The notes under the pieces: generated by a model
Seen by the model: the letters and a program-made list of their open reading frames with translations, nothing else
Told to the model about the DNA's origin: nothing
Database searches by the model: none
Shown: one piece after another, positions 42,560 through 56,511 of the stretch
Layout of the letters: every line of letters begins with the position of its first letter
Numbering within the stretch: the stretch's first letter is position 1
Position numbers and translations under genes: made by a program
NCBI RefSeq assembly: GCF_004138295.1
Contig: NZ_SCFM01000024.1
Coordinates: 1-64,000, forward strand
DNA length: 64,000 nt
Source of the DNA: Ectobacillus funiculus
GTDB taxonomy: Bacteria > Bacillota > Bacilli > Bacillales > Bacillaceae_G
Direction: 5' to 3'

Positions 42560-42916
42560 ATGTTACCATCTACTCTTGATGTGAAAACAAAATTTATTCA
42601 AGGATTTGCTGATAAAACCCGATTGCGAATTCTTTCTTGCCTGATGGATGGAGAAAAAAACGTATCCGAGATTGTGGAACGTATCCAAGGTAACCAATCG
42701 AATGTATCTCAACATCTAAGCTGCTTAAAAGGGTGCGGCATTATTAAGGGGAGACAGGAGGGGAAGTACGTGCACTATTCTTTGCGCAACGATCAAATTA
42801 AAGAACTTCTTACAATGTTTGATACGGTGTTCGAAGAAGTACAAAATGAGGTAGCTGCCTGTGACAAAAACGATGGCTGCCTGTCTCCAAAAGGGGAGGA
42901 GACCATTGTCGAATAA
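42560..42916 (+). CDS. ArsR/SmtB-family metal sensor, CadC/CmtR-like
   Basis: 118-aa repressor with recognition helix NQSNVSQHLSCLKGC (about 50-64). The CVCDL metal box of the first CadC is absent; instead Cys residues lie at SCLMDG, SCLKGC and in a C-terminal AACDKNDGC tail, as in CmtR-like or arsenical sensors. It overlaps the ATPase start by 11 bases, so the pair is translationally coupled. GGAGG precedes the ATG. Confidence 0.8.
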   Translation: MLPSTLDVKTKFIQGFADKTRLRILSCLMDGEKNVSEIVERIQGNQSNVSQHLSCLKGCGIIKGRQEGKYVHYSLRNDQIKELLTMFDTVFEEVQNEVAACDKNDGCLSPKGEETIVE

Positions 42917-47407: not shown

Positions 47408-48240
47408 CTAGGCTACCTGTTCCCCGTATTCTACGGGGGACAGGTAGTTTAATTTCTCTTGAATTCGCACACAATTATAATAATGAATGTATTCTAGCAC
47501 AATCTCTCGCACAGTTGTGTTGGATACTTTTGTTATCTGTTGTGAATAGAAAGCTTCGCACTTTAATACGGCGAAGAAGCTTTCCATGACGGCATTATCA
47601 TGGCAGTTTCCTTTACGGGACATGCTTGTGGTAATGCCGTTTTCTTTGGCATACATCTGAAATTCCTTAGAAGTGTAGATGCTTCCTTGATCAGAGTGAA
47701 GAATAACACTCTTCGCATTACGCTTACGTATCGCCTGTTTGAGTGTATCTAGAGCGAGTCGTACATTAGGAGATTCACTGATAACAGAGCTGATAATCTC
47801 ACGGTTGTAGGCATCCATGATGGTAGAAAGATATAAGGTACGCTCTCCAAACATGAGATACGTTACATCTGTAAACCACTTTTGATTTGGTGCGGTCGCT
47901 TCAAATTCTCTTTGGAGAAGGTTAGGAGATACAACTGGCTCCGCTCCTCCTATATATACTTTTCTCTTCCGCCGAACCCTAGATAATAAGCTATACATTC
48001 TCATAATTCGTAATACTTTCTTATGATTTACATGGAATCCCAATCGTCTGAGAATAGCTGTTACTTTTCGGTATCCGTATCGCTGCTTATATTGCCGGCA
48101 CACACACTGAACTTGTTTTTCTGTGTCATCTGATATGCGTTATGGTTTGTGAATCCAACGATAAAAGGTAGAGCGGGGAATATTGAGAATCTTACAGAAC
48201 TCTTTTATCGTAATGGATCCTTTCAGCTCTTTCCATGTCG
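47408..48240 (-). pseudogene. IS3-family OrfB transposase with an internal stop
   Basis: The DDE triad is present: FTDVTYL, HSDQGSIYTSKEF and NAVMESFFAVLK, with the usual spacing, and the frame ends in LNYLSPVEYGEQVA. Upstream, in the same frame, the conserved STFYRWIHKP leads into a TAA at 48140-48142 and continues with RISDDTEKQVQ. One nonsense mutation thus splits an otherwise complete gene; the catalytic part (from a GTG at 48103) could still be translated. Confidence 0.8.
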
Positions 48241-48243
48241 TAA

Positions 48244-48564
48244 TTACAAGGTCTGGTTTCCACTCCTTTCGATCTCTCGGTACTTTCCCAATACAAGAAG
48301 CTGTGCCTTCAACTGTTTGTTTTCTAACCGTAACTGTTCCACTTCATCCAGTTCTTTTGGATCTTTCCCTTGGTCATACCGTTTTCCCACAGGTTGTTCA
48401 AATCGATGGGTCTGTCCCATGCGATACCATCTCATCCATGTCTTCAACTGTGATTTATTCTTAATCCCTAACGTCTCCATAATCGTGTGGTTTGTGTAGC
48501 CTGCTTCTTTCATTTCAATTGCTTTCCATTTGATCTCCGCTGGGTAATGTACTCTTGTGACCAA
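48244..48564 (-). CDS. IS3-family OrfA
   Basis: About 106 aa from a TTG at 48564 (GGAGG upstream): a helix-turn-helix (EIKWKAIEMKEAGYTNHTIM...) and a C-terminal leucine zipper (LDEVEQLRLENKQLKAQLLV), the normal OrfA layout for DNA-end recognition and dimerisation. In-frame codons extend upstream to 48636 but run into the terminal repeat. Confidence 0.78.
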   Translation of the reverse strand: MVTRVHYPAEIKWKAIEMKEAGYTNHTIMETLGIKNKSQLKTWMRWYRMGQTHRFEQPVGKRYDQGKDPKELDEVEQLRLENKQLKAQLLVLGKYREIERSGNQTL

Positions 48565-48764
48565 AACAAAAACACCTCCGCTTGATTCGTCTTTTTTAGT
48601 ATGCGAATCAAGGGGGTGTTTTTTTTCATGTCCCACTATTAGGGTTCACTCCAAAACAATATGAAGGTTTTTGATAAACTTCTAGATAGATTGGCTTCTG
48701 TATTCTTGGATTGCGTAAAGAGGATAGATTCTAGTAAAGCTGTCCTTTTCTCTGATTGATCGGA

Positions 48765-48885: not shown

Positions 48886-48923
48886 GACCTGATTATATAC
48901 CCTATTAGGTATATAATCAGGTC
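48886..48923. promoter_or_regulatory. long palindrome with CstR-like operator
   Basis: GACCTGATTATATACC and GGTATATAATCAGGTC are perfect 16-bp arms around CTATTA. Its centre, ATACCCTATTAGGTAT, has the ATACCC-n4-GGTAT form of CsoR/CstR operators. It lies about 95 bases before the cstR remnant. Confidence 0.6.
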
Positions 48924-49016
48924 ATCACATACATTATCGGGTACCTAAAGGAAGAGATAATAGGAGTCACAACAAGTTTCTTATTAGAAAATTTTATGCA
49001 AAAGGAGGAACTTTAC

Positions 49017-49277
49017 CTGGAATATAATCAGCAAGTAAAAAACCGCTTAAAGAGAATTGAGGGGTAAGTCAAGGGTGTCCTGAACATGATGGAACAAAGG
49101 AAAGATTGCAGAGAGATTGTGACACAATGATAAGCTGTACGTAATGCAAGTGATCGCGCAGTAGGTGTAATTGTCAGTACCAATCTTGAACATTGTGTAA
49201 GGGGGATTATTGAAGGAGGTGAAAAAACGGAGCATCTTGTAAAAGAAGCGGTTGAATTATTAACTAAAGGTAGGTAA
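49017..49277 (+). pseudogene. cstR: persulfide sensor CstR (CsoR family), inactivated
   Basis: Read from CTG at 49017 the frame gives EYNQQVKNRLKRIEG-stop-VKGVLNMMEQRKDCREIV and ends TEHLVKEAVELL near a TAA at 49275. Three stops interrupt it, all in one frame with no shift: TAA for the expected Gln after RIEG, and TGA TAA where the family has Leu-Ser. The initiator is CTG where relatives have ATG, although an in-frame ATG exists at 48996. Both functional Cys positions (KDC and EHC) are still encoded. This is a recent loss by point mutation. Confidence 0.8.
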
Positions 49278-49284
49278 GAAACAT

Positions 49285-49471
49285 TTATCAGTCTCAATCC
49301 AGTTAAAGGTTGACGAGTTTAGCTTTGTATATTAACATACCCTCATAGGTATAAAAATAAGGGGAGTAACTGAGTTATTTATTAAAAGTAAGTTAAAATG
49401 CTCATCAATCTCAATATAATTAGGGATTGACGAAGCTAGTTTTATACAACGACATACCCGTGTAGGTATAT
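49285..49471 (+). promoter_or_regulatory. duplicated promoter with CstR-like operators
   Basis: Two imperfect copies about 120 bases apart (49285-49352 and 49404-49471) share ATCA-TCTCAAT, TTGACGA (a good -35), a TATA-rich -10 zone and the operators ATACCCTCATAGGTAT (49337-49352) and ATACCCGTGTAGGTAT (49454-49469). They precede the broken tusA. Confidence 0.6.
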
Positions 49472-49492
49472 GTGAAAAGTTAGAGGTAAACA

Positions 49493-49724
49493 ATGAAGGT
49501 TACTCAAGCATTAGATGCAAAAGGTTTAGCATGTCCAATGCCGATCGTGAAAACTAAAAAAGCAATAAGCGGTTTAGAAACAGGGCAAGTGCTAGAGGTA
49601 CACACAACAGATAAAGGTGTAAAAGTGATTTAACTGCTTGGGCAAAGTCTACAGGTCATATAATAGTGAATTTTAAATTAAAGAACAAAAGGATGTGTTT
49701 ATTTTTCAAATTCAAAAAGGATAA
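49493..49724 (+). pseudogene. frameshifted tusA copy
   Basis: Starts as a good TusA (LDAKGLACPMPIVKTKKAI, with the CPxP Cys) but a one-base deletion near 49622 ends the frame at 49631. Continuing in the next frame restores DLTAWAKSTGH; a second shift is needed to reach the FQIQKG end at 49719-49724. An intact paralogue lies at 52971. Confidence 0.75.
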
Positions 49725-49742
49725 ATGCTTTTATACTTCAAT

Positions 49743-49758
49743 ATACCCCTTTGGGTAA
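49743..49758 (+). promoter_or_regulatory. CstR-like operator before dsrE2
   Basis: ATACCCCTTTGGGTAA, 25 bases before the dsrE2 start. Confidence 0.5.
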
Positions 49759-49782
49759 GTTGGATAACGAGGAGGATACAAC

Positions 49783-50265
49783 ATGAGTGAACAAAAGAAA
49801 AAAACAACTATTGTTTTATTGAGTGGTGATTATGATAAAGTAATGGCCGCTTATATCATTGCAAATGGAGCTGCAGCCTATGACCATGAGGTAACGATTT
49901 TTCATACATTTTGGGGATTAAATGCCTTACGTAAAGAGGGACAGGTACCTATGAAAAAAGGGGTTCTTGAGAAAATGTTTGCAAAAATGATGCCACGCGG
50001 TGCTGACAAGATGGGGCTTTCCAAGATGAACTTTGCAGGGATTGGTCCGAAAATGATTAAATATGTGATGAAAAAGCATAATGCGATGCCGCTACCACAA
50101 TTGATTGAAATGGCACAGGAACAAGATGTGAAGTTGATTGCTTGTACAATGACAATGGATTTACTGGGACTGCAAAAGGAAGAATTACTAGATAACATCG
50201 AGTATGCAGGGGTAGCTGCTTATTTGGCAGAGGCTGAAGATGGAAATGTTAACCTATTCATCTAA
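49783..50265 (+). CDS. DsrE2-type sulfur carrier protein
   Basis: 160 aa of the DsrE/F-like fold (TIVLLSGDYDKVMAAYIIANGAA at the N-terminus). The sulfane-carrying Cys is in LIACTMTMDLLGL (about 121). No clear N-terminal membrane anchor. DsrE2 accepts sulfane sulfur from rhodanese or TusA in sulfur-oxidation and persulfide pathways. GAGGAGG precedes the ATG. It heads a run of sulfur-transfer genes with an operator directly upstream. Confidence 0.82.
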   Translation: MSEQKKKTTIVLLSGDYDKVMAAYIIANGAAAYDHEVTIFHTFWGLNALRKEGQVPMKKGVLEKMFAKMMPRGADKMGLSKMNFAGIGPKMIKYVMKKHNAMPLPQLIEMAQEQDVKLIACTMTMDLLGLQKEELLDNIEYAGVAAYLAEAEDGNVNLFI

Positions 50266-50312
50266 TTCTGCAGGATAAGGGATAAGATCTCATACTCACA
50301 TGGAGGAGCAAT

Positions 50313-50672
50313 ATGGAAATTTTAAATGTGGTAATCATTTCATTAGTTATTCTCTTTTTGATGCAACGTTTACTTCCAACAAAAGGTGTAAGACAGATTA
50401 GTGTTGCTGAATTAAAGAAAGAATTACAGGATAAAAACAAGCAGTTTGTTGATGTTCGAGCACCTGGAGAATATAAGGGAAATCATATTCGTACCTTTAA
50501 AAACATTCCGCTTCACGAGCTTACTCAAAAAGCAAATGGATTATCAAAAGAGGAAGAAGTGGTTGTAATTTGCCAAAGCGGGATGAGAAGTAAAAAGGCA
50601 AGTAAAGTATTGAAAAAATTAGGTTTTCAAAAGGTAACAAACGTAAAGGGCGGTATGAGTGCTTGGAATTAG
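50313..50672 (+). CDS. membrane-anchored single-domain rhodanese
   Basis: 119 aa: one N-terminal helix (VVIISLVILFLMQRL, 6-20) then a rhodanese domain with active-site Cys in VVICQSGMRS (about 87) and VDVRAPGEYKGNHI (about 46-59). It should move sulfane sulfur at the inner membrane face. GGAGGAGC precedes the ATG. Second gene of the unit. Confidence 0.85.
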   Translation: MEILNVVIISLVILFLMQRLLPTKGVRQISVAELKKELQDKNKQFVDVRAPGEYKGNHIRTFKNIPLHELTQKANGLSKEEEVVVICQSGMRSKKASKVLKKLGFQKVTNVKGGMSAWN

Positions 50673-50688
50673 TAAAAAGGAGGTAGTC

Positions 50689-50988
50689 ATGATGAAACAT
50701 ATTACGCCAAAAGAAGTGGAGAGCTTTTTGAAGCAAAACCAATCCTTAAATATCATCGATGTACGTGAAGTGGAAGAAGTAGCGACTGGGAAGATTCCAG
50801 GAGCCTGGAACATTCCATTAGGCTTATTAGAGTTTCGTATGCATGAGTTAGATAAAACAAAAGAGTATATATTAATTTGCCGTTCAGGTACCAGAAGTGC
50901 CCGCGCAACAGAGCTTTTAGAAGGTCATGGTTTTTCTGTCACGAACATGATGGGTGGGATGCTTGTCTGGGAAGGTATCATTAAGTAA
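50689..50988 (+). CDS. soluble single-domain rhodanese
   Basis: 99 aa with the active-site loop LICRSGTRSA (Cys about 64), IIDVREVEEVATGKIPGAW near the start and GGMLVWEG at the end. AAGGAGG lies before the ATG at 50689. It follows the anchored rhodanese by 16 bases. The CRSGTRS loop is that of thiosulfate/persulfide sulfurtransferases. Confidence 0.85.
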   Translation: MMKHITPKEVESFLKQNQSLNIIDVREVEEVATGKIPGAWNIPLGLLEFRMHELDKTKEYILICRSGTRSARATELLEGHGFSVTNMMGGMLVWEGIIK

Positions 50989-51002
50989 TTTTTTCAGGGG
51001 AC

Positions 51003-51018
51003 ATACCCTTGGGGGTAA
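51003..51018 (+). promoter_or_regulatory. CstR-like operator before the TusA-rhodanese gene
   Basis: ATACCCTTGGGGGTAA, 26 bases before the start at 51045, suggesting an internal promoter. Confidence 0.5.
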
Positions 51019-51044
51019 CAAGTGGGATGAGGAGGATATGCGAG

Positions 51045-51620
51045 ATGGAGAACATAAAAACAGATCTTTTAGTTGACGCAAAAGGATTTGCTTGTCCAAT
51101 GCCGATTGTACGTACAAAGAAGGCGATGAACGAACTACAGCCTGGGAAGGTAATGGAAGTACAAGCGACTGATAAGGGATCAACAGCTGATATTCAGGCT
51201 TGGGCAAAAAGTACAGGACATCAGTACTTAGGAACTGTAGAAGAAGGAAATGTATTAAAACATTACCTTCGTAAAGCGAGTGAAAAGGCTGGAGAAGAAA
51301 AGAAACATCCGCATGTAGTAAGCAATGAAGAGTTGCAAGCAAAATTAAAAGAAAGCAAAAATATAGTGGTTCTGGATGTTCGTGAAGTGGCTGAGTTTGC
51401 ATTCAATCACATCCCAGGTGCAAAGTCCATTCCATTAGGAGAACTTGAAGAACGTCTATACGAATTAAATCCAGAAACTGAGGTGTATGTAGTATGCCGA
51501 ACAGGAACCCGCAGTGATTTAGCAGCACAAAAGTTGGTTGAAAGGGGCTTTAAGCAAGTGTTGAATGTAGTTCCTGGTATGAGTGAATGGCCTGAAAAAA
51601 CAGCTAAAGCAAATAACTAA
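51045..51620 (+). CDS. TusA-rhodanese fusion sulfurtransferase
   Basis: 191 aa: an N-terminal TusA domain (DAKGFACPMPIVRTKKAM, Cys about 17) joined to a rhodanese domain (LDVREVAEFAFNHIPGAKSI and VVCRTGTRS, Cys about 151). The layout puts a persulfide donor and acceptor in one chain, like the first two domains of staphylococcal CstA. ATG at 51045 is preceded by GAGGAGG; the in-frame starts at 51009 and 51027 fit less well. Own operator upstream. Confidence 0.85.
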   Translation: MENIKTDLLVDAKGFACPMPIVRTKKAMNELQPGKVMEVQATDKGSTADIQAWAKSTGHQYLGTVEEGNVLKHYLRKASEKAGEEKKHPHVVSNEELQAKLKESKNIVVLDVREVAEFAFNHIPGAKSIPLGELEERLYELNPETEVYVVCRTGTRSDLAAQKLVERGFKQVLNVVPGMSEWPEKTAKANN

Positions 51621-51639
51621 GGGAGATTTTGGCTGTTAA

Positions 51640-51756
51640 ATGACAATGGATATGATGGGGTTAGAAAAAGAGGATTTTGTTGAAAGAATGGAAGTAGGCG
51701 GAGCTGTGATGTTTTTAGAATTTGCGAAGGATGCGAATGTAATGTTAACATTTTAA
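51640..51756 (+). pseudogene. C-terminal dsrE2 fragment
   Basis: 38 codons beginning MTMDMMGLEKEDFVERMEVG match the last third of the DsrE2 gene at 49783 (TMTMDLLGLQKEELL). No ribosome binding site and no N-terminal part: remains of a second dsrE copy between the fusion and the dioxygenase genes. Confidence 0.65.
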
Positions 51757-51783
51757 TCTCTATAAAAAATTTTAAATAAAAAT

Positions 51784-51799
51784 ATACTATAGGGGGTAA
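51784..51799 (+). promoter_or_regulatory. CstR-like operator before the persulfide dioxygenase
   Basis: ATACTATAGGGGGTAA; the right half fits the operator, the left half is weaker. It overlaps the ribosome binding region of the next gene. Confidence 0.4.
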
Positions 51800-51804
51800 T
51801 TGGA

Positions 51805-52932
51805 ATGCCAGTAAATCAAATGACATCGAAAGAGGTAACGAGAAAAGTCATTAACAAAGAACCATTGTTTATTCTAGATGTTCGTAATGAAAATGATTTT
51901 CAAAATTGGAAAATTGAAGGAGAAAGCTTTAAATACCTAAACGTACCTTATTTTGAATTATTGGATGGGGTAGAGGGGATCGTGGATCAAATTCCTGCAG
52001 ATATAGACGTATTGGTTGTATGTGCAAAAGAAGGCTCATCTATCATGGTTGCCGATATGTTATCAGAAGAAGGACTGACGGTTTCTTACCTAAAAGGTGG
52101 AATGAAGGCTTGGAGTGAGCATTTAGAGCCAATCAAAGTTAGTGATTTAAAAGATGGTGGAGAACTTTACCAATTTGTTCGAATCGGTAAAGGCTGCCTA
52201 TCTTACATGGTTGTTTCAAATGGAGAAGCAGCATTGGTTGATGCAGCACGTATGACCGATGTGTACCTGGACCTTGCTCAAGAAATCGGTGCAAACATTA
52301 CACAAGTATTGGATACACATCTTCACGCTGACCATATCTCAGGTGGAAGAAAGATTGCAGAAGCAACAGCTGCTACGTACTGGTTGCCTCCAAAAGATGC
52401 AACAGAAGTAACATTCCAGTACCAACCACTAGAGGATGGTAACGAAGTAACGATTGGTAATACAACAATCAATATTCACGCCTTATATTCTCCAGGTCAC
52501 ACAATTGGATCTACTTCCTTTGTAGTTGACGAAACATTCTTACTGTCAGGGGACATTTTGTTCATTGACTCCATTGGACGTCCTGATTTAGCAGGTATGG
52601 CGGAGGACTGGGTTGGAGACTTACGAGAAACGCTTTATAAAAGATACAAAGATTTATCTGAAGAACTCATTGTATTACCAGCACACTTTATGATTATCGA
52701 CGAATTAAATGATGACGGCAGTGTATCTGAAAAATTAGGCATATTGTTCGCACAAAATCATGGTCTAAACATTGAAGATGAGAATGAGTTTAGAAAATTA
52801 GTGACAGAAAACTTACCGCTGCAGCCAAATGCATACCAAGAAATTCGCGAAACGAATATGGGGAAAATCAACCCGGATGAAGAAAAGCAACGTGAGATGG
52901 AAATTGGTCCAAACCGCTGTGCAGTTCGCTAA
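51805..52932 (+). CDS. rhodanese-metallo-beta-lactamase persulfide dioxygenase
   Basis: 375 aa. N-terminal rhodanese domain ([11 protein letters not shown], then VVCAKEGSS with Cys about 73) followed by an ETHE1-like metallo-beta-lactamase domain with [11 protein letters not shown] (His 172/174, Asp 176, His 177), [10 protein letters not shown] (about 231) and LSGDILF. The iron dioxygenase oxidises protein or low-molecular-weight persulfides to sulfite. Domain order is opposite to staphylococcal CstB (lactamase first). AGGGGG precedes the ATG. Confidence 0.88.
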
Positions 52933-52970
52933 TGATTAAGAAAAATCAATAGATAGAATAGGGGAAATGA

Positions 52971-53201
52971 ATGATGAAAGTAGATAAAGTGTTAGATGCA
53001 AAAGGTTTAGCATGTCCGATGCCAATCGTAAAAACCAAAAAAGCTATAAATGAATTGGAATCTGGACAAGTATTAGAAATTCATGCGACAGACAAAGGTG
53101 CGAAAAATGACCTTACAGCCTGGGCAAAATCAGGAGGACATGAGTTTTTGGAGTACATGGAAGACGGTGACGTACTCAAATTCCGAATTAAAAAGGGGTA
53201 A
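52971..53201 (+). CDS. TusA-family sulfur carrier
   Basis: 76 aa, intact TusA: LDAKGLACPMPIVKTKKAIN with the persulfide Cys about 15 in CPMP, and the terminal VLKFRIKKG strand. It ends the sulfur block and is the functional counterpart of the broken copy at 49493. GGGG lies before tandem ATG codons at 52971 and 52974. Confidence 0.88.
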   Translation: MMKVDKVLDAKGLACPMPIVKTKKAINELESGQVLEIHATDKGAKNDLTAWAKSGGHEFLEYMEDGDVLKFRIKKG

Positions 53202-54211: not shown

Positions 54212-54861
54212 TGTTAAATAAATCATATTTATTCACTTCCTATATCATGAATTATGGTGCGACAAGAAGTTGCATTCTCACAGTGTAGCTTACGCTACCC
54301 ATCTAGACGCAAGGATGGTCTCCAGCCGAAACTGCATATTTGGTAACGAATACGTAGGTTGCATGAGGAAATGCGGAAACAGAGGACCAATGCATGGTCC
54401 AGAATACTGCTAGGAGAAGACAGGTATGGTAAACGAAAGTGAAGGTTTGCAAGCTTCGTAAACGATAGCTCAAGATAATGCATAGCTCTGCTTGGGTATT
54501 GGTAAGAGGAAAAGTAGAATCATAATGCTACTGTGCAGCGTCCCATATCTTACCCGGAGTAAAGAACCTACCTAACCCTGCTGTATCTGTAGAATGTGGA
54601 ACTTGGTAAGCCCTATGTTATCTGCCTAAGCAGTAGGGAGACCGTAAGGTCAAACGATGTGACAGAGGGTACAGGATATGAGAGAAAGCAAATGCCGTCA
54701 CCCGAAAGGGAACAGGAAAAACAGATAACTGTATAACTGGACGGATACTGTCGTCCTTATGGGCAAATCCATGACAGACTCGAAAGAGGGCCCACTTCTC
54801 ATAGGTCTTCAACACGAAAATAAATTTGTGGCTAACTTCTGACGAAAAGGAGCGTGCAGTT

Positions 54862-56511
54862 ATGAATACCTCAGACCGAGCGTCGGCGCACGCCTCGTAT
54901 ACAAACTGGAATTCAGTAAACTGGAATGAAATTCAAAAGTATGTGACGAAGCTACGACAAAGAATTTATCGTGCCGAACAACTCAAACAACAAAGGAAAG
55001 TACGAAAACTTCAACGACTACTCCTACGGAGTGAAGCGAACCTACTGTTGTCCACTCGAAAAGTGACACAACAGAATAAAGGAAAACGCACCTCTGGTGT
55101 AGATGGTTACACAGCACTGCACGCCGGCAGACGTAATGAACTATATCGACAACTAAAGCGACAGAATATATTTCAACATCGTCCGAGACCGGCAAAACGA
55201 ACCTATATTGCGAAGAAAAATGGAAAACTGAGACCACTTGGTATTCCGACTATTAAAGATAGAGTCTATCAGAACATGGCGAAAAACGCGTTGGAACCTC
55301 AATGGGAAGCAAGATTGGAACCATCTTCATATGGGTTCCGTCCAAAGCGAAGCACCCATGATGCGATTAGCAACATCTTTATCAAGATTAACACCAATAG
55401 TAAGAAAAAATGGATATTCGAAGGAGACTTTAAGAACTGCTTTGATCGTTTGAGTCATGATTGGATACGGAAACAAACCTCTCGGTTTCCAGGAAAAGCA
55501 CTCATTAAAAGATGGCTGAAGATGGGATATGTAGATCAATACGTGTTCACTGAAACACAGGAAGGCACTCCCCAAGGAAGTATTGCATCTCCTCTGTTAG
55601 CAAATATCGCACTCCACGGAATGGAAGAAGAACTTGGTATTATATATCGTAAGACATATAAATCCAATGGAAGTTACGCTATCCATCCCAAGTGCAAGAT
55701 AACTCTTGTTAAATATGCAGATGACTTCGTTGTGCTAACAGAAACTAAGGAACAAGCACAGTCTATCTACGAAAGACTACAACCGTACCTTAGGAAAAGA
55801 GGACTCGAACTAAGCAAGGAGAAAACCAAGATCACTCATATCGAAGATGGTTTTAATTTTCTCGGGTTTTCAGTTCGACAGTACAAAACATGGCAAGGAA
55901 ACAAGCTGCTAATTAAACCGAGTAAAGAGAGCATTAAGAAAGCTAAAGAGAAGATACGGGATACATTCCGTTTAATGAGGGGGAAACCTGTCCGTGAACT
56001 TATCAAAGCACTAAATCCTATTATAAGAGGCTACGGACAATACTGGAAACATGTAGTATCAAAGAAGACATTTGATAAGATGGCAAACTACGTATTCCAT
56101 AAAACGTGTAAACATCTAAGGCAACTCCATCCTAAGAAAGCGTGGAAATGGATAAGGAAAAGATATTTCAGGAAACCGCATCATGGCGGAGATAACTCTT
56201 GGATCTTAACTTGTCCTATAACAAATATTCAACTCTTACACATGCCCTGGATTAAAATAAAACGACATGTGATGGTGTTATATAAAAACAGTCCAGATGA
56301 TCCTGCCCTCAAAGAGTACTGGGAAAAACGAGACCGCAAGGTTTTCGATATAGAAAATACTCTGGACAGAATAAAACTCGCAAGAAAGCAAGGATATCGT
56401 TGTGCATTATGCAGGCAACCTCTACAAAACGGTGAAAAGGTTACTGTCCGGAATTTAGAAATTCCTACAGGTGAAGTTACTAAGCTAGTACATATACCTT
56501 GCGTTAGATAA
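54862..56511 (+). CDS. ltrA: group II intron reverse transcriptase/maturase
   Basis: 549 aa. RT motifs in order: GKLRPLGIPTIKDRVYQ, YGFRPKRSTHDAI, FEGDFKNCFD, QGSIASPLLANI and the catalytic YADDFVVL (about 285-292); domain X follows (PIIRGYGQYWKHV). At the C-terminus an HNH-like Cys region remains (RCALCRQPLQNGEKV, then VHIPC), but the His-His and Asn of a standard HNH centre are not evident. I take ATG 54862 after AAAAGGAGC. The protein splices the intron and drives retrohoming. Confidence 0.9.
   Translation: MNTSDRASAHASYTNWNSVNWNEIQKYVTKLRQRIYRAEQLKQQRKVRKLQRLLLRSEANLLLSTRKVTQQNKGKRTSGVDGYTALHAGRRNELYRQLKRQNIFQHRPRPAKRTYIAKKNGKLRPLGIPTIKDRVYQNMAKNALEPQWEARLEPSSYGFRPKRSTHDAISNIFIKINTNSKKKWIFEGDFKNCFDRLSHDWIRKQTSRFPGKALIKRWLKMGYVDQYVFTETQEGTPQGSIASPLLANIALHGMEEELGIIYRKTYKSNGSYAIHPKCKITLVKYADDFVVLTETKEQAQSIYERLQPYLRKRGLELSKEKTKITHIEDGFNFLGFSVRQYKTWQGNKLLIKPSKESIKKAKEKIRDTFRLMRGKPVRELIKALNPIIRGYGQYWKHVVSKKTFDKMANYVFHKTCKHLRQLHPKKAWKWIRKRYFRKPHHGGDNSWILTCPITNIQLLHMPWIKIKRHVMVLYKNSPDDPALKEYWEKRDRKVFDIENTLDRIKLARKQGYRCALCRQPLQNGEKVTVRNLEIPTGEVTKLVHIPCVR

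Follow-up and report, generated by a model that had tools for sequence, protein, structure and literature searches.

A persulfide-detoxification locus of Ectobacillus funiculus with a broken cstR gene and a likely unlinked CstR repressor

We analysed a window of 64,000 nucleotides from Ectobacillus funiculus (NCBI RefSeq assembly GCF_004138295.1, contig NZ_SCFM01000024.1, positions 1 to 64,000 of the forward strand), in which positions 48,886 to 53,201 hold a locus of persulfide-detoxification genes headed by a broken repressor gene of the CsoR family, cstR. The source is a 5.45-Mb draft genome (G000) of 146 contigs, the locus lying on contig C65 and an intact cstR gene, which probably serves it, on contig C75.

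Gene content of the locus and its broken repressor gene

The window brings together DsrE2, rhodanese, TusA and rhodanese-metallo-β-lactamase (MBL) genes, the gene set of cst/yrk loci (Table 1). An earlier note on this DNA had named DsrE2, two rhodaneses, a TusA-rhodanese fusion, a rhodanese-MBL protein and TusA, and this content is correct: the six enzymes each score above the Pfam cut-off, while no NCBIfam profile does so for any of the six. What that description overlooked is a frameshifted tusA, a fragment of a second dsrE2 and a second promoter with its operator. Every relic has an intact counterpart, namely the tusA gene at 52971, the dsrE2 gene at 49783 and, for the cstR pseudogene, the CstR gene on C75. 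The MBL protein has a single further match in the genome, which is weak (38% over residues 145-266). No linked sqr or tauE-like gene was recognised on reading the list of open reading frames (ORFs) between 46000 and 57000, no genome-wide search having been made. Named relatives at the DsrE2 locus are mostly Bacillaceae.

The claim that the locus has lost its own repressor to three in-frame stops without any shift proved right. Positions 49017-49277 form a single continuous CsoR-family frame interrupted by TAA, TGA and TAA, which matches PF02583 with 72 bits, above the cut-off and reported with "1 TGA, 2 TAA"; a frameshift is thereby ruled out, and no open reading frame for a functional CstR is left. 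CTG stands where the alignment places the start codon, and an in-frame ATG lies seven codons upstream, ahead of the apparent ribosome site. A functional C-terminal fragment was also considered and rejected, no plausible restart codon being seen by reading 3' of the stops. The working cstR (yrkD) that stands in 69 of the 80 named loci surveyed below is thus lacking at the head of this one. We take yrkD to be linked to yrkEFHIJ in Bacillus subtilis as well. Across a survey of 249 genomes (228 with a match), internal stops occurred in one of the 150 matches listed, that of the window.

The break appears to be recent, since the substitutions in the pseudogene resemble those between intact genes. 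Compared with 12 intact genes of its clade over 82 codons, it differs at 19-23, 8-13 and 39-49 sites at codon positions 1, 2 and 3, the corresponding values for six pairs of intact clade genes being 17-24, 5-9 and 42-52 over 85 codons; purifying selection would therefore have acted on the local gene until recently. The pseudogene carries eight residues unseen in rows less than 80% identical to it, against a median of two for intact genes (n = 71), four of which reach eight or more, all four within its clade. In a simple neutral simulation, a median of 35-44 missense changes precede the third stop, the 5% point being 9-13. Three stops with so little excess missense change depart oddly from simple neutral decay; two of the three stops are adjacent codons and may stem from one event. 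The tree sets the pseudogene among genes of Bacillus, Priestia, Peribacillus and Anoxybacillus, apart from the local cstR of three related genomes (G001, G002 and G006), a placement that is not firmly supported.

By reading, the locus is flanked by an IS3-like transposase pair (47408-48636) and a group II intron-like reverse transcriptase gene (54826-56511); neither overlaps cstR, which rules them out as the cause of the break.

Table 1. Features of the persulfide-detoxification locus in the window
Feature	Position	Strand	Profile
Perfect inverted repeat with 16-bp arms, 6 bases between, around operator 48897-48912, upstream of the cstR pseudogene	48886..48923	.	
cstR-type (CsoR-family) pseudogene, three in-frame stops, CTG at aligned start	49017..49277	+	PF02583
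Promoter-like TTGACG-17-TAACAT, then operator 49337-49352	49310..49352	+	
Second copy of cstR 3' tail, promoter and operator (49454-49469), 70% identical	49371..49470	+	
tusA pseudogene, frameshifted, end approximate	about 49493..49690	+	
Operator, one mismatch to the 16-bp palindrome, before dsrE2	49743..49758	.	
DsrE2	49783..50265	+	Pfam
Rhodanese, N-terminal hydrophobic stretch (by reading)	50313..50672	+	Pfam
Rhodanese	50689..50988	+	Pfam
Operator, one mismatch, before TusA-rhodanese gene	51003..51018	.	
TusA-rhodanese fusion	51045..51620	+	Pfam
3' fragment of a second dsrE2	51640..51756	+	
Rhodanese-MBL, persulfide-dioxygenase-like	51805..52932	+	Pfam
TusA	52971..53201	+	Pfam

Operators of the locus and the intact CstR gene on C75

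The pattern ATACCYNNNNRGGTA gives eight strand-matches at five places in the window, all of them within the locus, as compared with a mean of 0.12 and a maximum of 3 in shuffled sequences. Three of the five fit the full 16-bp palindrome and the other two carry one mismatch. The earlier statement that operators remain intact before nearly every unit goes too far: the best site ahead of the rhodanese-MBL gene has three mismatches, and none of the five precedes the second rhodanese or the last tusA. Throughout the 5.45 Mb of the genome, ATACCYNNNNRGGTAT (ATACCY-N4-RGGTAT) occurs at four places, namely 48897, 49337 and 49454 in the window locus and C75:36312, directly before the C75 gene, the reversed control giving none. 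The site ahead of the C75 start, ATACCTATAAAGGTAT, has the spacer of four bases expected of a cst/yrk-type operator, and the promoters at 49310 and C75 are built alike, with TTGAC(G/A), 17 bases, TAACAT and then the operator.

The earlier note had called for a genome search for another CstR with the two cysteines, and one was found. PF02583 retrieves four genes in the genome: the window pseudogene, a CsoR on C60 beside a copper-ATPase-like gene, a regulator on C86 that begins with a His-rich stretch and has a NicO/UreH-like transporter nearby (labels by reading), and the gene at C75:36032-36292. The latter encodes 87 amino acids in an open frame without stops, carries the family domain (CsoR/DUF156) with 87.8 bits and has both Cys31 and Cys60; NCBIfam leaves the CsoR-family proteins unclassified, no model exceeding its cut-off. 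Four residues before the second Cys, C75 has Asn56 where the C60 CsoR has a His (by reading), the residue that we take to be a copper ligand of CsoR. The best match of the C75 protein in the PDB is 7mq1 (E 3.8e-15). Its sequence is identical to that of 7mq2, which is named CstR in PMC9774590, where positions 31 and 60 are given as the sensing cysteines. Reading of the ORFs in the 14 kb around the C75 gene revealed no sulfur gene, no domain search having been made there.

The front of the locus has a composite look. Segments 49253-49353 and 49371-49470, each comprising a cstR tail, a promoter and an operator, are 70% identical and thus too diverged for a fresh duplication. The second copy starts with what appear to be the last codons of another cstR, so that the front may have been assembled from two loci; the -10 element of this copy looks degraded. 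One arm of the inverted repeat at 48886-48923 recurs in 7 of the 225 loci fetched, always as a copy of that same place.

Related loci and the length of the operator spacer

Genes of the C75 type are present in all three genus mates (G001, G002 and G003) and in G006, with 76-84% identity, and form a single clade with support of 100/97. The tree used 89 of 94 rows (the remote CstRs L189, L191, L194, L201 and L203 were left out, and L202 was 15% filled) and has few columns and many open forks; it was relied on solely for this clade. In G003, the locus at C23 (MBL 83%) has operators before tusA, dsrE2 and tusA-rhodanese, three of them perfect, with no local cstR and no detectable remnant of one (best tblastn E 4.8). 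The sole CstR of that genome is orthologous to C75, and its promoter holds a perfect site. G001, G002 and G006 have an intact local cstR in addition to the C75-type gene. The site in the C75-type promoter is perfect in G000 and G003 and imperfect in G001, G002 and G006, five genomes being too few for a trend. The palindrome is found at 17 places in G001, G002, G003 and G006 together (reversed controls, 4 in total): nine at the sulfur locus, one in a C75-type promoter, two ahead of genes for what, by reading, would be a CoA-disulfide reductase or a rhodanese, and five elsewhere. The spacer-4 sites before such CoA-disulfide-reductase-like or rhodanese genes, L222:4442 and L224:5656, belong to G001 and G006, in which the CstR regulon may therefore be wider. 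By reading, the sulfur loci of these four genomes end with a TauE-like gene, and ArsR-like and thioredoxin-like genes adjoin the C75-type cstR of the genus mates (L156, L157 and L158); the latter pair is not there in G000.

We surveyed 80 named loci, the best by DsrE2 similarity of at least 557 confirmed, with one genome per species, cstR being scored absent if tblastn was negative in the flanks (about 5 kb per side where the contig allows). Besides the 69 intact genes, nine loci had none (L012, L014, L030, L034, L048, L057, L058, L075 and L078), one was cut by the contig end (L076) and one was wrecked: at L016:158-306, in Neobacillus cucumis V32-6, a cstR lacking its 5' half and frameshifted lies between two operators. 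None of the 80 displayed stops like those of the window. In the 800 bases ahead of dsrE2, all nine cstR-less loci retain 1-4 matches to the operator core, counted on both strands, and all nine genomes encode an intact CstR elsewhere (53-65% identical to C75), as does that of L016, making ten of ten genomes with an absent or wrecked local gene. In four of the nine (G149, G150, G153 and G158), no counterpart of five window proteins is matched within 1.5 kb of the single CstR gene, which is preceded at 54-100 bases by an operator-like site (search range 300 bases; the G149 site is off by one base). A locus without a working local cstR in a genome with CstR elsewhere is thus uncommon yet recurrent, and the title of the earlier note makes the case look more singular than it is.

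The spacer between the half-sites helps to tell which repressor these operators belong to. In the 80 loci (808,503 bases), the palindrome with a spacer of four bases occurs 160 times in 71 loci, those with spacers of 3, 5 and 10 once each and those with any of the remaining spacers between 0 and 9 not at all. Nine of the 80 loci lack the strict palindrome, and four lack the shorter core in the 800 bases ahead of dsrE2. Spacer 4 is also seen in two of two annotated cst loci from staphylococci. The copA site of G000 (C60:34517, identical to L226:1501-1517) has the same half-sites, ATACCC and AGGTAT, with a spacer of 5; a second spacer-5 place in the genome is C140:3018, and one such place turns up in the reversed control as well. 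Nine plasmid loci of the CsoR type were taken from the 40 listed of 519 records: four have sites, all with spacer 5 (L229 and L230 among them), and five have none, one of these (Deinococcus) adjoining rhodanese and MBL genes rather than copper genes. A looser pattern also matched with spacer 8 inside the ATPase gene of L228, with spacer 7 inside the tauE gene of L229 and with spacer 6 in L226. In Streptomyces lividans, the CsoR consensus has a 5-base spacer (PMC3902906). Spacer 4 at CstR loci versus spacer 5 at copper CsoR sites favours the window operators being CstR sites. Spacer length correlates with the type of repressor in the loci compared, and the difference may keep CstR and copper CsoR apart.

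Regulation of the locus: competing explanations and meaning

The enzymes, the sensor and the operator type are already known. The cst operon of Staphylococcus aureus shares with the system described here a Cys31/Cys60 sensor, the C75 CstR in our case, together with sulfurtransferases and an MBL persulfide dioxygenase, but its cstR is linked to the operon (PMC5480029, PMC9774590), the only one that CstR was suggested to control directly (PMC5480029). The yrkD cluster of Bacillus licheniformis likewise has a CstR-like repressor gene at its head, and YrkD binds ahead of yrkD and also in the intergenic region that follows, binding that elemental sulfur abolishes; linkage of yrkD is thereby supported in this species, whose cluster differs by a working first gene and NreBC, whereas the first gene of the window is dead and its likely repressor is on another contig (PMC9918477). 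The B. subtilis genes yrkEFHIJ, strongly induced by allicin and polysulfane, include DsrE2-like, TusA-like and related genes as in the window (PMC6943732). In Enterococcus faecalis, CstR controls the CoA-persulfide reductase gene coaP (PMC9405070), comparable with G001 and G006, where spacer-4 sites precede genes that read as CoA-disulfide-reductase-like or rhodanese, although the enzyme set is another one. Copper CsoR belongs to the same family and has the ATACCC/GGGTAT half-sites of the window, with the Streptomyces spacer of five bases instead of four (PMC3902906). The takeover by an unlinked repressor once the local one is lost, and the contrast of one base between the spacers, are new as far as our literature search reached: it found no remote-CstR takeover, cstR pseudogene or spacer rule, subscription papers being mostly beyond its reach.

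We consider it probable that this is a yrk/cst-type locus for the detoxification of persulfide or sulfane sulfur whose local cstR was recently inactivated, the C75 CstR being the protein that most likely binds the retained ATACCY-N4-RGGTAT operators. At low persulfide, the C75 protein would keep its own gene and the locus repressed; a sulfur link between Cys31 and Cys60 would relieve this repression at the two places, by analogy with S. aureus CstR and B. licheniformis YrkD. The copper CsoR of G000 would be kept off the window operators by the one-base-longer spacer of its own operator. With an equivalent repressor available, the local gene could have been lost, in the same way that intact counterparts exist for the relics of tusA and dsrE2. 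Should the remote CstR be inactive, the locus would be strongly on, as in a yrkD mutant.

The earlier note left a choice between constitutive expression and a CstR encoded elsewhere, and the latter is now better supported by the intact C75 gene, the shared operator and G003. Constitutive expression, with operators as relics awaiting decay, appears unlikely. The break looks recent, so intact operators alone are no proof of use, and loss of yrkD in B. licheniformis raises one transcript 87-fold (PMC9918477). Against it stand an intact CstR with the same operator in the genome, the three perfect operators that G003 keeps in spite of having neither local cstR nor remnant, and the operator cores retained in all nine cstR-less named loci.

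Control by another regulator is quite improbable, be it the copper CsoR of C60 or the C86 regulator acting through shared half-sites, or an unrelated sensor of the ArsR or two-component type. The copA site does share its half-sites with the window, NreBC additionally controls sqr and pdo in B. licheniformis (PMC9918477), and reading of the window shows two ArsR-like genes outside the locus (about 1968-2384 and 42560-42913); however, the spacers set copA and the CsoR-type plasmid loci with sites (4 of 9) apart from the window and the staphylococcal cst loci, and S. aureus CsoR is unresponsive to sulfide (PMC5480029). That the stops are assembly or sequencing errors in an intact cstR is very improbable: the assembly is a draft and the missense changes beside the stops are few (eight unseen residues, inside the intact-gene range, versus a simulated median of 35-44), but three stops and a CTG start within 261 bases, near a frameshifted tusA and a dsrE2 fragment, resemble a decaying front end, and the cstR of L016 was wrecked in a different way.

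Several observations weigh against a role of the C75 CstR at the locus. It is 56-57% identical to the pseudogene product, and its contig, C75, is separate from C65 in a draft assembly whose contamination is 4.75%; the two agree in composition (r 0.966), which does not discriminate because a genus mate is equally high (0.972). As G001, G002 and G006 also keep a local cstR, the C75-type gene could serve other functions in these genomes. A site alone is no proof, since 5 of the 17 palindrome places in the related genomes are at genes without a recognisable sulfur function by reading, and a relaxed pattern (first half ATACCC, last base free) matches, besides the five places of the locus, C86:40223, between two convergent ORF ends (six places in all; reversed control 3). 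Promoter-like matches in the region number 9 versus 14.3 expected and are thus not above chance, which is why the window promoters were deduced from the layout shared with C75.

Beyond this genome, we tentatively put forward, as a possibility somewhat short of even, that a code of one base in spacer length, N4 marking the sites of persulfide CstR and N5 those of copper CsoR with identical half-sites, insulates two sister repressors within a cell, and that persulfide loci repeatedly shed or break their local cstR and join the regulon of a self-regulated remote CstR; local cstR genes would be disposable because any CstR would read any N4 operator. Knowledge of DNA recognition in the CsoR family was called rather limited in a review (PMC9774590), and spacer 4 versus spacer 5 offers a simple, testable rule that would separate persulfide from copper targets. 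In the E. funiculus locus, control would have passed from one repressor to another while all the pieces can still be seen: the local repressor gene, dead since recently, the operators, which are retained, and the probable successor with the same operator. If this is true, a local switch becomes a small unlinked regulon.

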